7,278 bases of DNA from Candidatus Pacearchaeota archaeon (GTDB taxonomy: Archaea > Nanoarchaeota > Nanoarchaeia > Pacearchaeales > GW2011-AR1), in assembly GCA_002690445.1 (NCBI GenBank), contig NZER01000409.1:1-7278 (forward strand), given 5' to 3'. The position numbers and the translations under genes were made by a program. This document shows positions 2 to 7,278 of the stretch, in pieces. Positions within the stretch are counted from its first letter, which is position 1. The number at the start of each line of letters is the position of its first letter. The notes beneath the pieces are model-generated. The model ran no database searches and was not told the origin of the DNA. It saw only the letters and a program-made list of their open reading frames with translations.

Positions 2-430
2 CTAGAACAAAATGACCCAACAATATTACATGGTGTACTTGATTCTTCCTGTTGGAATAAGACAGGGACAGGTCCTAGTATAGCAGAAGCATTATTAAAG
101 AGTGGATTACGTTTTATACCTGCAGATAGAGACAGAATAGCAGGTAAATTAGCAATACATAAACGATTACAGCTTAATAGTCAGGGAGAACCACAACTAA
201 AGATTTTTAAAACTTGTACTAATTTAATTCGTACTTTACCTACCCTACCATTAGATAAAATTAATACGGAAGATATAGATACAAAGGCAGATGACCACGC
301 ATACGATGCACTACGTTATATGTTAATGTTAAGACATCGAGGAGCAAGAGATTTTATTCAAGAAGCTAGAGAAGCTAGAGAAAAGGATGAAAAAAAGAAC
401 GAAATAGCAGATACAATGTTTGGATATTAA
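2..430 (+). CDS. terL: Large terminase subunit (TerL), C-terminal nuclease part, 5' end outside window
   Basis: Open from the left edge, with 142 codons visible before TAA at 428-430. TerL is the phage packaging motor: an N-terminal ATPase (not in view) drives DNA into the prohead, and a C-terminal RNase H-fold nuclease cuts the concatemer. The visible piece matches the nuclease half. GVLDSSCW (visible residues 11-18) followed by a GPSIAEALLKSG stretch is the usual 'D...S.a..l...G' arrangement. DDHAYDALRY (97-106) is the typical terminal motif, whose acidic residues help bind the catalytic metal. After it comes a charged tail containing a 9-bp tandem duplication (362-379, coding EAR-EAR), and the protein ends in MFGY. 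The stop lies three bases before the next start, so the two genes probably share a transcript and may be translationally coupled. The family call is firm. The subfamily and packaging type (cos, pac or headful) cannot be judged from this fragment. Confidence 0.88.
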   Translation, partial: LEQNDPTILHGVLDSSCWNKTGTGPSIAEALLKSGLRFIPADRDRIAGKLAIHKRLQLNSQGEPQLKIFKTCTNLIRTLPTLPLDKINTEDIDTKADDHAYDALRYMLMLRHRGARDFIQEAREAREKDEKKNEIADTMFGY

Positions 431-433
431 ATT

Positions 434-3379
434 ATGGCAGAAATAAATAAACAAATGAACGATATAGGAATTCCTCCGATTGTTCCTTGGGAAGATGAAA
501 CAGAAAAAGAAACTCAAGTTCGTGCTGAAAAAGAATTTTTTACAGAACAACCGTATGAAGATACTGATGTAAAACCATTATCTTTAAAAGAAAAATGGAA
601 AAAAGCTCAGGAGAAAAAATTAGAATTATTATACGGACCAGACAAAGAAGGAATAACTGGACGTAAAAGAATAAAGGAATTATGGAAAACTCCAATTGAT
701 AATATATTGGATATAACTCAAATAAGTACATATAAACCCCCATTAAAAGATGCTCCGATGTGGCAAAAAGTTTTACATTATGGTGCTTATGAAGGGGCTG
801 TAGGCGGACCTATAAAAGCTTTTTTTAGTCTACCAGCAGGAGGTATAGGATATTTAGGAGGACTTGCAGAAAGAACATTAACTAGTTCTCAAATTTACTT
901 TCCACATAAATACAAAGAAATATTTGGAGATAGTAAACCAAATGATATTGCACATAAGCTTGAAGAAAGTTTAGGAATTGCACTTTTAGGATATGGTACC
1001 GCAGCTAGACCATCACTTCCATTATCTAAGACTCAAAAAACTCAAATAAAGCATAGTAAACAATATAAAAAAGCCGAAACAGAAGTTGCAGAATTTGAAA
1101 ACACCTACAGTGTTGGTGCTAAAAAAGTATATACTACACCCCCTAAAAAAGGAGCAGGTACATATCTTGGAAAAAATATAGATCCCATATTAGATAAATT
1201 AAAGAAAAAAGAACGACCATTAGAAAAAGAAAGAATAACTGCAGGAAAACAAACAACTTTATTAGAAGATATAGTTGTTCCTAAAATAGAAGTTGCACAA
1301 AAAGAATCAAAAGGATTTTTACGAGTATTAGATGTAAAATTAAAAGAACCTTGGACACTAATAAAAGAACAAAGAGTTGAATATTATCCAGATTTACCGA
1401 GACCAAAAGAATCTAGACAGTACAAAACTAAAGGTGTAGGCGAAATAAAAGTACATACTGAAACAGGCACACTGTCGGGAGTAAAAGATTATAGACGAAA
1501 AGTTCAAACAGAAGGATATGAACATGGGTTACAATGGTTATATGAAAGTAATTATAATTTTGCACCAGAACACTATTCATTTTTAAATAGATTAAAAAAT
1601 TTACCAGAAGAACCTGTTGTAGGTAATAATTTTGCAGTAGGGTATACTACAAAAGGATATGAATTTCGTAATATAAAATTACCATCTTCAAAAGATACTA
1701 AACCTATTAATCTAAATGTATTAAAACCACATCAATTAGCTGAAGTGCCGGGTAGAACATTAAATCCAAAAGCTTTAATTGAATATTTAGAAAGTTTACC
1801 AAAATACGGAAAAGATCATCCAGAAGTCGGTAGACGAATGGTAGTAACAAAAAACCAAATAGGTTTTGATGTCATGAACCCAGTAACTACATTATCCATA
1901 AAACATGTTCCTGAAATATTAGCAAAAGCTGAATATCAAGGATTAATAGTTCATGTAAAACATCAACAAGGTGGTAAATGGATAGATGGAGGTTACTACT
2001 GGACAAAAAAAGGTATAGAATATGTAAATAAACCTTTAAAAAGTAGAATAAAAATAGGAACACGAACAAAAACAGAACATAAAGACGTAGTATTACCACA
2101 CAAGATAAAATCTATCGTTAATAAAAGTGTTTCTGAATTAAAAGCAGAAGGTTTTACTACATATCAAAAAAGTATCAGAGAAGTATTAACAAAAGATGAG
2201 TGGAGTGCATTAGTAAAAGAAACTGCAAAAGAACCTGATCCTTATTTTGCATCACAAGATTTATTATTACTTAAACTTCAATATGATGCAGGTTTACGAG
2301 GGGGAGAATTACGAAATTTAAAAATATCAGATATTAAAGGTAAGACTATATCAAGAATAGAATACCATGGTGGTCAACCCCGAAAAGTAGACATACTACC
2401 TACAGCAGGTAAAGCAGAAGGTATCTTAGAGATACGAAAAGAAATAACTAAAACAGAAAAAGATAGAACTACTACACTTAATCCAGAAACACTTTATTTA
2501 ATAGCTAAACATATAAGATTATTAGAAAAGAAATTTCCAAATACTGAATATCTTTTTCCTAATATAAAAGATTCACAAAACCCTATAAGTTATAGAACTC
2601 ATAATACAACTATAAATAGATTATCAAAAGATACTGGTATACCAATAAAAGTAAACACACATACTGTAAGAAGAACTAGAGCTACACATATGCGTGAAGA
2701 AGGTATAGAATATGAAATAATACGAGAAAAAATGGGGCATAGTAGCCCTCTCACAACTGCACTATATATAAAAGATAGTATTGAGAATATTAGAAATTTA
2801 TTACATAAATATTCAGGAGCAGAAACTCAAATTCTTAATCTTACACCACTGGAACAAATTATGACCGGTGTTAAACAAGGAAAACAAGATTTACCAGCAC
2901 CATCTGTATATATTAAAGGGATGGAAAGTGCATTAAATAATTTAGTAAAAGATGGAAGAATATCGCAAAGAACAGCTGATGCTAGATTAAAAAAATTAAA
3001 ACAAGATATAAAATTAGGCGTAGTAAAACCTTCACAATTAACAAATCTTGTACCAAAAGAAAAAGCTCTTACTGTTTCAAAAGAATATACAGCACACACC
3101 TTAAAAACACAACAAAGTCGAGTACTATATAATTTACAACAAAAGATAAAACCTATTATTAAAGGAGATAATAGACCTGTATTTGAAACCACAGATCCAT
3201 TAAATCCTAATATAACATATCGATTACCATTGGGTACAGAATGGGTAGATCCAGTAACAAAAACTACATATAAGGTTATTGAGGGAAAAGCTGGAAAACT
3301 ATCTATTAATACAGTTTATACAAAATCACAATTAAAAGAATTTAAAAAGAAACAAAAACGATATACAAGTTTCGAATAA
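434..3379 (+). CDS. 981-aa protein with an embedded tyrosine recombinase (phage integrase) catalytic domain
   Basis: A long uninterrupted frame. Residues about 585-790 read as a tyrosine recombinase catalytic domain: LTKDEW at 585-590, Arg I in AGLRGGEL (R622), a probable beta-hairpin lysine in TKTEKDR (K673), the HxxR box HTVRR (H743, R746), the MGHSS box (H769) and nucleophile Y778, nine residues after H769 as is usual. Such enzymes break and rejoin DNA through a 3'-phosphotyrosyl link. Ordinary phage integrases are about 300-450 aa; here about 580 residues precede and 200 follow the domain. Residues 1-45 are acidic, 50-85 are Lys-rich, 115-190 are glycine-rich and hydrophobic, and 200-560 are unrecognised. 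A classical core-binding domain is not obvious; 555-585 is the only helical candidate. The start at 434 is the first ATG after the terL stop, three bases away, with no clear Shine-Dalgarno; ATG at 455 is an alternative. The position between terminase and portal suggests late expression and possibly virion location (inference). Domain call strong, overall role unknown. Confidence 0.85.
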   Translation: MAEINKQMNDIGIPPIVPWEDETEKETQVRAEKEFFTEQPYEDTDVKPLSLKEKWKKAQEKKLELLYGPDKEGITGRKRIKELWKTPIDNILDITQISTYKPPLKDAPMWQKVLHYGAYEGAVGGPIKAFFSLPAGGIGYLGGLAERTLTSSQIYFPHKYKEIFGDSKPNDIAHKLEESLGIALLGYGTAARPSLPLSKTQKTQIKHSKQYKKAETEVAEFENTYSVGAKKVYTTPPKKGAGTYLGKNIDPILDKLKKKERPLEKERITAGKQTTLLEDIVVPKIEVAQKESKGFLRVLDVKLKEPWTLIKEQRVEYYPDLPRPKESRQYKTKGVGEIKVHTETGTLSGVKDYRRKVQTEGYEHGLQWLYESNYNFAPEHYSFLNRLKNLPEEPVVGNNFAVGYTTKGYEFRNIKLPSSKDTKPINLNVLKPHQLAEVPGRTLNPKALIEYLESLPKYGKDHPEVGRRMVVTKNQIGFDVMNPVTTLSIKHVPEILAKAEYQGLIVHVKHQQGGKWIDGGYYWTKKGIEYVNKPLKSRIKIGTRTKTEHKDVVLPHKIKSIVNKSVSELKAEGFTTYQKSIREVLTKDEWSALVKETAKEPDPYFASQDLLLLKLQYDAGLRGGELRNLKISDIKGKTISRIEYHGGQPRKVDILPTAGKAEGILEIRKEITKTEKDRTTTLNPETLYLIAKHIRLLEKKFPNTEYLFPNIKDSQNPISYRTHNTTINRLSKDTGIPIKVNTHTVRRTRATHMREEGIEYEIIREKMGHSSPLTTALYIKDSIENIRNLLHKYSGAETQILNLTPLEQIMTGVKQGKQDLPAPSVYIKGMESALNNLVKDGRISQRTADARLKKLKQDIKLGVVKPSQLTNLVPKEKALTVSKEYTAHTLKTQQSRVLYNLQQKIKPIIKGDNRPVFETTDPLNPNITYRLPLGTEWVDPVTKTTYKVIEGKAGKLSINTVYTKSQLKEFKKKQKRYTSFE
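2186..2803 (+). other. Tyrosine recombinase catalytic domain within the 981-aa protein
   Basis: This segment codes for residues 585-790 of the host gene. All expected active-site positions are seen in order: R622, K673 (less certain, chosen by context in TKTEKDR), H743, R746, H769 and Y778. The intervening region 680-712 (LNPETLYLIAKHIRLL, then YLFPN) matches the usual integrase pattern of a helix followed by a 'Y-L-F' strand before the HxxR helix. The spacing from R622 to Y778 (156 residues) is normal for the family. Nothing essential appears mutated, so the domain is predicted to be catalytically competent. Boundaries are approximate. Confidence 0.88.
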
Positions 3380-3385
3380 CAAACA

Positions 3386-3406
3386 TATTATTAACTTATT
3401 ATTAAC
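3386..3406 (+). repeat. Two direct copies of a 10-base AT-rich word upstream of the 77-aa gene
   Basis: The word TATTATTAAC occurs at 3386-3395 and again at 3397-3406, an 11-base period close to one helical turn. It fills the 41-base gap between the recombinase-fusion stop and the next start, just before a strong ribosome binding site. It could be part of a promoter or operator or an unstructured translation-enhancing leader, or it may be chance in AT-rich DNA. No convincing -35/-10 pair can be assigned. Confidence 0.4.
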
Positions 3407-3410
3407 AATT

Positions 3411-3415
3411 GGAGG
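3411..3415 (+). promoter_or_regulatory. Strong ribosome binding site (GGAGG) for the 77-aa gene
   Basis: GGAGG ends five bases before ATG at 3421. It is the best Shine-Dalgarno match among the starts in the window. It decides the start: an in-frame TTG at 3409 overlaps the motif and would leave it unused. Confidence 0.8.
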
Positions 3416-3420
3416 AAAAT

Positions 3421-5892: not shown

Positions 5893-7278
5893 ATGGCACT
5901 TAATTTTAGTGATATATTTAAAAATACACGAAGTTCAATTCGTTTAACTGACTCTTCTCTATCTCTCAGTAAGAATAGAGAACAAAAAGTATTAGAAAAA
6001 AAAGCTGATAATTATATCAATGAAATTGAACCTTTACCTTTAAATTATAAGTCTATAATTCCAGTGGGAAGTAATCTAAATCCTTATCAAGCACGATCAC
6101 TAGAAATTGTTCAAGGGGCGAAAGATGAAGAAGGAAATTTTGGATTTTCAGGATTAGGTCTTCAAGGAACACAATTTCAAAGAGCACAACTAGGTGGAAC
6201 AATAACTCAACACCCAGAAAAACAAGGTTTTGAAAGAGGGGTTACTGCAGCAGGTTTTCCAACGCAGGAACAAATGACAGGACTCGGTTTTAGACAAGGT
6301 CCTGCTAGTTATAAACCACAAAAATACGCACACGGAGAAGAAGTAATACAAAATGAACAACCACCAATAGAACAACCACCAATAGAACAACCACCAATAG
6401 AACAACCACCAATAGAACAACTACCCACAGAACAACTTCCTGAAGAAAAAAATGCAGCAGTTCAACAAATGGGAAATATTGAAGCTGCAAAAGAACAAGG
6501 TTTATCAGCAGAACCAGAATTAATAGATGAATCTCAAGCTGCACCACCTCAACAAGCAGCAGATGATGTAAAAAAGACAGTACCAGAAGGTAGTTTTGTT
6601 ATTAACAGTGCAGCAGTAAAAATTGCAGGTTTAGATTATATAGAAGAAATTGTAATAGATGCTTTAAAAGTAGCTGTTGACAAAGGAATCAATATTGCAG
6701 TTATAGGTGGTGCTAAAGGTAAAGAAGCAGTAAATATATTAATTAGTAATGGTGAAGTTATTATACCACCAGAATTAGTAGGTATTATTGGAGAACATAC
6801 ATTAAAACTTATAAATGATAAAGGTATTGCTGCTATGAAAAAAGAAGAACAACTTCAACAAGGTCCACAAGCAGGACAATACGGAGGTGCAGAAACACCC
6901 CCACCACCACAACAAGCATACGGAGGATTCATAGATATGAAAGAAGGATATGCCAGTGGCAAGAAAGTCAATGGCAAAAAAAAAAGTCCATATGACCCAT
7001 GGATAAGAAAAGAGTTATATGAAGGTGAAATTAAATTTTTTAAAGACAATCCAGATACACCAGCGATGACAACAAAATATAATAAAATTATTCTTAATCC
7101 AAACCCACCAAAAAATGTAAATATGGAAGCAGTTAAAAAAAATGAATTTGGAAGAGTTTTAATAAATACAGGAAAATTCAAAGTACCTGATTTTAAACTT
7201 ACCGATAAACAACAAGAAAAGTTTATTAATTATGGTACGGATAAAAATATACAAGATACTATCATAGCTCGTATTGTA
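5893..7278 (+). CDS. Putative virion structural protein, 3' end outside window (462+ aa)
   Basis: Open to the right edge. The start is ATG 5893, the first start codon after an in-frame TAA at 5878. The only Shine-Dalgarno-like word, AGAGG at 5872-5876, lies 16 bases away, which is unusually far. No signal peptide or membrane segment is seen. Residues 85-145 are Gly/Gln-rich. Residues 155-184 are six pentapeptide units (EQPPI four times, then EQLPT, EQLPE). PEGSFVINSAA (231-241) and NGEVIIPPELVGIIG (286-300), followed by LKLIND, resemble the paired 'GEFVI...N..A...G' motifs seen in many phage virion and tail proteins (established pattern, family not named). Residues 335-350 are Gln/Gly/Pro-rich. 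KKVNGKKKSPYD (357-368) spans an A10 tract. Position directly after the portal suggests a head, scaffold-like or internal virion protein. No enzyme motif was found and function is inferred from context only. Confidence 0.7.
   Translation, partial: MALNFSDIFKNTRSSIRLTDSSLSLSKNREQKVLEKKADNYINEIEPLPLNYKSIIPVGSNLNPYQARSLEIVQGAKDEEGNFGFSGLGLQGTQFQRAQLGGTITQHPEKQGFERGVTAAGFPTQEQMTGLGFRQGPASYKPQKYAHGEEVIQNEQPPIEQPPIEQPPIEQPPIEQLPTEQLPEEKNAAVQQMGNIEAAKEQGLSAEPELIDESQAAPPQQAADDVKKTVPEGSFVINSAAVKIAGLDYIEEIVIDALKVAVDKGINIAVIGGAKGKEAVNILISNGEVIIPPELVGIIGEHTLKLINDKGIAAMKKEEQLQQGPQAGQYGGAETPPPPQQAYGGFIDMKEGYASGKKVNGKKKSPYDPWIRKELYEGEIKFFKDNPDTPAMTTKYNKIILNPNPPKNVNMEAVKKNEFGRVLINTGKFKVPDFKLTDKQQEKFINYGTDKNIQDTIIARIV
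6355..6444 (+). repeat. 15-bp in-frame tandem repeat coding EQPPI units
   Basis: The unit GAACAACCACCAATA is repeated four times perfectly (6355-6414), followed by two diverged units (6415-6429 and 6430-6444). The protein reads EQPPI four times, then EQLPT and EQLPE. The unit is a multiple of three, so copy number can change without breaking the frame. Perfect identity at the DNA level, including third bases, points to recent duplication. The product is probably an extended Pro-rich linker or spacer. Confidence 0.97.
6976..6985 (+). repeat. A10 homopolymer inside the downstream virion gene
   Basis: Ten consecutive A residues code for three Lys plus the first base of the next codon (residues 362-365). 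A -1 shift here would reach TGA at 6993-6995 and a +1 shift TAA at 7004-7006, so slippage would truncate the protein near residue 368-371. It may be a slippage site, a phase-variable tract or a sequencing-error hotspot. The intact long frame on both sides suggests the length given is correct. Confidence 0.9.

Follow-up and report, generated by a model that had tools for sequence, protein, structure and literature searches.

A hypervariable late slot between terminase and portal genes that usually holds a predicted tyrosine recombinase in an uncultured podovirus clade

The window analyzed here is the whole 7,278-nucleotide stretch of contig NZER01000409.1, which by sequence similarity is the late gene region of a podovirus, a relative of the HMO-2011-type phages. 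Its central gene, an open reading frame (ORF) for a protein of 981 amino acids (aa) with a tyrosine recombinase domain, lies between the genes for the terminase large subunit (terL) and the portal protein, a position that we call the slot. A preliminary description of this DNA had reported the ORF as part of the late packaging module, and the matches of both flanks bear out a late packaging and head gene order. The finding is larger than first noted: the slot is clade-specific and hypervariable, and it usually holds a tyrosine recombinase. Loci of relatives carry L numbers, and two of them recur throughout: L015, the closest relative by terL, and L009.

The recombinase gene between terL and portal

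The slot gene and its parts are as follows.

434..3379, + strand: slot gene, encoding a 981-aa protein with a tyrosine recombinase domain; ATG start, single open frame
434..1183, + strand: residues 1-250; the first ~10 codons share the flank homology with L015
1184..2113, + strand: middle region of the protein (residues 251-560), resembling the central part of its L015 counterpart
2123..2794, + strand: predicted tyrosine recombinase catalytic domain, residues 564-787
2297..2299, + strand: codon for R622 (Arg I); column R in 53/53 slot proteins with a letter there
2450..2452, + strand: codon for K673 (likely catalytic Lys); column K in 42/51
2660..2671, + strand: box II, H743-T-V-R746; R746 column R in 51/52, H743 column H in 5/52
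2738..2740, + strand: codon for H769 (box III); column H or R in 47/48
2765..2767, + strand: codon for Y778 (nucleophile); column Y in 25/26 with a letter, gap in 28/54
2816..3376, + strand: residues 795-981, C-terminal region, without a known family in the Pfam search

As the preliminary description had expected of a Pfam search in this region, PF00589 matches residues 584-781 (E 1.4e-23; bit score 84, cut-off 27.1), and PHROG 1 'integrase' matches residues 582-849 (E 4.9e-31). The five residues that it named, R622, H743, R746, H769 and Y778, are where it placed them, and when 54 slot proteins are aligned they occupy the catalytic columns. The catalytic lysine was absent from its list and is most likely K673, which gives the window protein a full R-K-H-R-H/W-Y set; we take R622, K673, H743, R746, H769 and Y778 to have the corresponding catalytic roles. 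The term 'canonical' used there fits the window protein but is unusual for the slot, since box II varies in its first residue. We predict that the slot gene of the window encodes an active-type tyrosine recombinase of the Xer/integrase class.

Two proteins in a set of 5.8 billion match the full window protein, and the catalytic domain alone as query returns the same two: one is identical to it and the other, P0002, the sole further close homologue found, has 986 aa, is 82% identical and carries all six catalytic residues unchanged. The full protein has no relative in IMG/VR or among 50,697 phage records; the recurrence came to light only through terL and portal.

Outside the recombinase domain, Pfam gave nothing at a limit of E 10 (HMMER filters discard most matches above about 0.1), and no PDB sequence matched residues 1-549 at E<=5. 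Residues of about 117-145 form a Gly-rich, mildly hydrophobic stretch. The 19-residue hydropathy of the window protein peaks at 1.15 and no transmembrane helix is claimed; values of at least 1.6 occur in 5 of 64 slot proteins versus 0/71 terL and 0/63 portal proteins, most slot peaks being 1.0-1.5. The C-terminal region compares with the C-terminal parts of L015 and L009 at Z scores of -0.4 and 2.2, respectively. An AlphaFold2 model of the window protein was unusable (mean pLDDT 37.6).

Recurrence, conservation and exchange of the slot

The slot is flanked in the window by the following features.

2..430, + strand: C-terminal 142 aa of terL, cut by the window start; left border of the slot; PHROG 5653 terminase large subunit, E 2.5e-4
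3387..3420, + strand: right border of the stretch that is exchanged, ATTATTAACTTATTATTAACAATTGGAGGAAAAT; shared by L015 and, minus the first base, by L009
3421..3654, + strand: 77-aa ORF, right neighbor of the slot; 95% identical in L015
3664..5856, + strand: portal protein, 730 aa; PF23899 E 3.8e-30, PHROG 332 E 2.3e-68
5893 onward: start of a further protein

With the portal as bait we recovered L015, which has a 934-aa ORF at the same place, and L009/L012, whose 1188-aa slot ORF contains a recombinase domain (PF00589 E 1.9e-26). Scans with terL and portal alignments, each restricted to the best 80 of about 600 candidates, gave 126 loci with both genes on one strand, the window included; the counts thus describe the nearest relatives. 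We defined the clade as loci with a terL at least 56% identical to that of L009, and a large slot ORF as one of at least 290 aa. By locus, the clade numbers 75, of which 69 have a large slot ORF and 59 a recombinase; eight loci are second copies of the same contig, and after their removal 67 contigs (window included) remain, with a large slot ORF in 61 and a recombinase domain in 52. Neither a large slot ORF nor a slot recombinase was found in any of the 51 contigs outside the clade.

For protein comparisons we dropped slot ORFs below 180 aa and removed 12 of 83 as redundant at 95% identity. The resulting set of 71 slot proteins contains 65 from the clade, and these 65 include all 54 recombinases. 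The slot recombinases are mostly 540-1190 aa long, and PF00589 often misses them (17/71 slot proteins match at E<=0.01, versus 54/71 with an iterated model).

The arrangement was also recovered from the recombinase side. When the slot recombinase of L044 served as bait in IMG/VR, it gave 56 loci, of which we examined the 55 new ones; these include some on contigs found earlier and ten whose match is mainly through the C-terminal tail or a fragment. Where there was enough sequence, terL stood directly upstream in 49/49 and portal at most 700 bp downstream in 43/43. The preliminary description had proposed a survey of related phages for this gene order, and the order does recur, in 52 of 67 clade contigs and all 49 bait loci. 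Because it is found again in dozens of contigs, a chimeric join in the window is very unlikely. The spacing is likewise conserved: terL ends 3 nt before the slot ORF in the window, and in 60 of 65 non-redundant clade slot genes the start lies -1 to +5 nt from the terL stop, which suggests translational coupling.

Neither L076, a typical slot recombinase, nor the L009 terL (at 60% identity or more) has a match in the 50,697 phage records, so no isolate of the clade was seen among them. The carriers are uncultured bacterial viruses with kinship to ocean phages.

Conservation of the slot recombinases centers on their catalytic residues. Across the 54 aligned domains, Arg I, Arg II and box III are close to invariant and the lysine is frequent (counts in the first feature list). 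The tyrosine is equally consistent where the local alignment reaches it, and many of the 28 proteins with a gap there have a Tyr further on, often 15-22 residues past box III. In the L044 subfamily, which consists of L044 and the best 120 of its 242 homologues (n=121), R168, K197, R279 and R302 show no variation, and Y318 occurs in 120/120.

The catalytic domain of the relatives is under purifying selection, with dN/dS of 0.045, 0.040, 0.050, 0.056 and 0.161 in five pairs, two of them with saturated dS; a sixth pair was too similar to tell. C-terminal values are higher: four pairs have dN/dS of 0.157, 0.303, 0.313 and 0.58, and the two saturated pairs have pN/pS of 0.316 and 0.406.

The slot as a whole, by comparison, is hypervariable. 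Among 111 pairs with terL at least 90% identical, 73 had no detectable similarity between their slot proteins (all at least 300 aa, some cut by contig ends). The near-identical phages L028 and L078 form a natural presence/absence pair, the former with a filled slot and the latter with an empty one. Whole-slot exchange between close relatives is nearly ORF-exact: what is swapped corresponds roughly to the ORF, plus 3 nt on its left and 41 nt on its right in the window. The conserved right border there (3387..3420) includes the presumed ribosome-binding site of the 77-aa ORF that follows.

A C-terminal tail of ~140 aa is common to 10 of 71 slot proteins, several of them with different heads. It occurs in no non-slot ORF except two cut ones, and the window protein is without it. 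Its presence under different heads shows modularity; we do not read it as a virion signal.

Not every large occupant resembles a recombinase. Those of L023, L024, L027, L040, L042, L066, L110 and L132 had no recombinase match, and some of these unmatched proteins end in Gly-Gly and basic motifs. The L058 slot protein is also unmatched and by eye may be a divergent recombinase.

A possible role at entry, and its alternatives

The recombinases of phages are familiar chiefly from early and lysogeny functions. A conserved late slot that is mostly filled by recombinases with intact catalytic residues, swapped whole between near-identical phages, suggests that recombination has a part in particle assembly or at the very beginning of infection, within its first minutes. 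We favor, with moderate confidence, a virion-borne recombinase that would act on entry and is supplied from an exchangeable slot of the late operon. The slot would be a dedicated cargo site of this HMO-2011-related podovirus clade. Its gene reads in the same direction as the terminase and head genes and starts at the terL stop, so the protein would be made late. It may then be packaged as an internal (ejection) protein, enter the cell with the DNA and act on DNA at once, the most likely action being to join, circularize or integrate the incoming genome before early gene expression. Replacing the whole ORF would switch target specificity. A wider form of this proposal, which we put forward more tentatively, is that an uncultured podovirus clade injects diversifying site-specific recombinases that could act on phage, host or rival DNA at entry, their specificity being swapped by ORF-exact cassette exchange between terL and portal.

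Support for ejection is indirect and comes from L009 rather than from the window protein. By tblastn, 19 phage records match residues ~75-206 of the slot protein of L009, with E-values from 2e-26 to 7e-3. Twelve of the 19 are annotated as internal virion protein; nine of these 12 were compared, and 9/9 match. The phmmer E-values of this comparison were computed against nine sequences only, so the tblastn values carry more weight. PHROG 6651 'internal virion protein' also matches the L009 slot protein, weakly (E 0.0011). The L009 recombinase thus appears to be fused to a module of the T7 gp16 type, which ties one slot recombinase to a module of ejected proteins.

Several observations weigh against virion delivery or against a recombinase as the general function of the slot. 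Hidden Markov model (HMM) and shuffle tests detected the module neither in the window protein nor in that of L015, and it was found in 1 of 71 slot proteins. The same HMM and shuffle tests found no similarity of the window protein to T7 gp16 or internal virion protein D. For the window protein, delivery is therefore suggested by position, size and kinship. In the window, L009 and L015 proteins 560-630 residues precede the catalytic domain, unlike in typical slot recombinases. The catalytic domain of L015, closest by terL, is degenerate, its box II and box III residues seemingly lost. Finally, 9 of 61 large slot ORFs in clade contigs have no match with the recombinase model, and a large slot ORF is missing from 6 of 67 clade contigs, so the particle can do without the slot gene.

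An unlikely alternative is a late recombinase that is not ejected, and that resolves dimers or junctions in replicating or concatemeric DNA for packaging by terminase in the producing cell. The start codons placed at the terL stop would suit such a function, as would the profile matches to Xer enzymes, which resolve dimers. However, empty slots in near-identical phages (L028 versus L078) and the hypervariability of the occupants do not suit a fixed packaging role, and the fusion of the L009 recombinase to an internal virion module also speaks against this alternative.

We give somewhat less credence to an ordinary lysogeny integrase that has moved into the late region and whose target site is changed by integrase exchange, as in other temperate phages. 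Consistent with this, some homologues are named 'integrase' by JGI, and the slot gene is the sole match to the domain model in nine of 16 IMG/VR records (G001, G002, G004-G007, G009, G010 and G016). The other seven records gave no match: a large slot gene is missing from G011-G014, the large slot proteins of G003 and G015 do not match a recombinase, and this search missed a slot recombinase of G008 that the iterated model detects. Three of five isolate records, HMO-2011, CRP-207 and ctYwJ313, have one recombinase elsewhere (open frames of 302, 318 and 389 aa) and no large slot gene, while HTVC033P and HTVC115P gave no match with the domain model. No record among these 16 and five has two recombinase matches, although most of the IMG/VR records may be fragments. 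The preliminary description had held that a separate recombinase elsewhere in related phages, with no fusion, would refute its reading; this is the situation in the more distant relatives HMO-2011, CRP-207 and ctYwJ313 and not in the clade.

Against a displaced integrase, the exchanged unit is so close to the ORF that it leaves little room for an adjacent non-coding attP, although an attP within the ORF or at another place would be compatible with this. Expression from a late operon would miss the time of integration on entry if the protein were not carried in. None of the 20 genome-contig loci, some of which occur in more than one assembly, has a slot recombinase, so no integrated copy was seen; this point is weak, because these loci have a terL below 56% identity or none, hence do not belong to the clade and say little about it. 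The locus L171 is on a contig of a SAR11 single-cell genome (AG-422-J20) and carries terL and portal of a relative (~55% portal identity) without a slot recombinase.

Independent spread of a selfish mobile gene, the recombinase or a different occupant, into the junction of terL and portal seems improbable. Presence or absence with borders at the ORF ends and swaps of whole ORFs could be read in this way; however, the large extra regions are under weaker but measurable constraint, the slot also houses large proteins without recombinase match, and the bait recombinase resides in the slot in 49/49 loci. We regard an exapted fold that only binds DNA or has a structural or regulatory function, with catalysis dispensable, as very improbable: the degenerate L015 domain, the phage repressor SroF among the fold matches and the appearance of MrpR in a search listing fit it, but R, K, R, R and Y are invariant in the 121-sequence subfamily, and Arg I, Arg II and box III are nearly so across slot proteins that are mostly <30% identical.

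If the wider form of our proposal is correct, the slot would supply a class of injected effectors with site-specific recombination activity, which we did not find described in the open literature searched; our searches there for virion-borne or injected recombinases returned nothing relevant. The terL-portal cargo locus could also be mined for other functions, given its large occupants without a recombinase by this test. A further consequence concerns lytic and lysogenic calls made from absent lysogeny genes, since Pfam often misses slot recombinases. Among HMO-2011-type phages, which have a DNA polymerase with a partial DnaJ domain, CRP-3 integrates, and subgroups IV-X have been suggested to be possibly obligately lytic on the absence of lysogeny genes (PMC9038755).

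Known systems and neighboring genes

The best sequence-profile matches of the catalytic domain are to Xer, IntI and Tn1549 Int enzymes: a profile of 32 slot domains matched XerC-like (4a8e), XerA (5hxy), XerD (1a0p) and IntI4 (2a3v) structures in the PDB, the best at 9e-22. Enzymes of this group are also among the best fold matches of L076, whose AlphaFold2 model (11 sequences) is usable over ~residues 1-390 and mostly below pLDDT 50 beyond. The profile and fold comparisons also covered similarity to protelomerase structures and do not decide for or against it. Xer-type enzymes are free-standing and ~300 aa long, whereas the slot recombinases are larger, have extra regions and lie in a late phage operon. 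The integrases of HMO-2011, CRP-207 and ctYwJ313 belong to the tyrosine recombinase superfamily too, and these phages are akin to the window by terL and portal (~50% identity), but their integrases are frames of 302-389 aa elsewhere and nothing large lies between terL and portal.

Internal virion protein D of Autographiviridae, which we take to be of the T7 gp16 class, has a homologous module in the L009 slot protein; unlike the slot, its gene adjoins tail genes in HTVC041P, and the module was not detected in the window protein. A parallel in organization is offered by the polyvalent and MuF-type proteins, large multidomain proteins whose genes accompany those of virion components and for which injection is predicted (Iyer et al. 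2017, PMC5512222). The slot gene likewise lies among virion genes, as expected of an injected protein. Its putative effector domain differs in being a tyrosine recombinase; the words 'recombinase' and 'integrase' are absent from the main text of PMC5512222.

The flanking genes place the window among relatives of HMO-2011. Its terL part is 96% identical to the end of the L015 terL and 45-50% identical to those of HTVC033P, HTVC115P, HMO-2011, CRP-207 and ctYwJ313, and its portal is 53.4% identical to that of HTVC033P, 52.4% to HTVC115P and 46.7% to CRP-207. By these similarities the terL and portal of the window are homologous to those of HMO-2011-type phages.

Several minor features of the neighborhood can be added. 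By eye, the L015 slot protein (L015:1413-4217) looks like two recombinase fragments out of order, with box II lost and a box III/Tyr-like stretch lying before the Arg I stretch. Loci of the L009 type (also L008 and L010) encode a 157-aa acetyltransferase just after portal (L009:9194-9667; PHROG 1249, E 1.3e-33), which was not seen at that place in the window; there, the protein after portal has tandem QPPIEQ repeats at 6355-6440. In a more distant relative, a 2OG-Fe(II) oxygenase (L150:2542-3132; PF13759, E 9e-13) lies between terL and portal, and in ctYwJ313 the same gap has an endonuclease VII-like protein (L006:8241-8918; PHROG 1035, E 6.6e-21).
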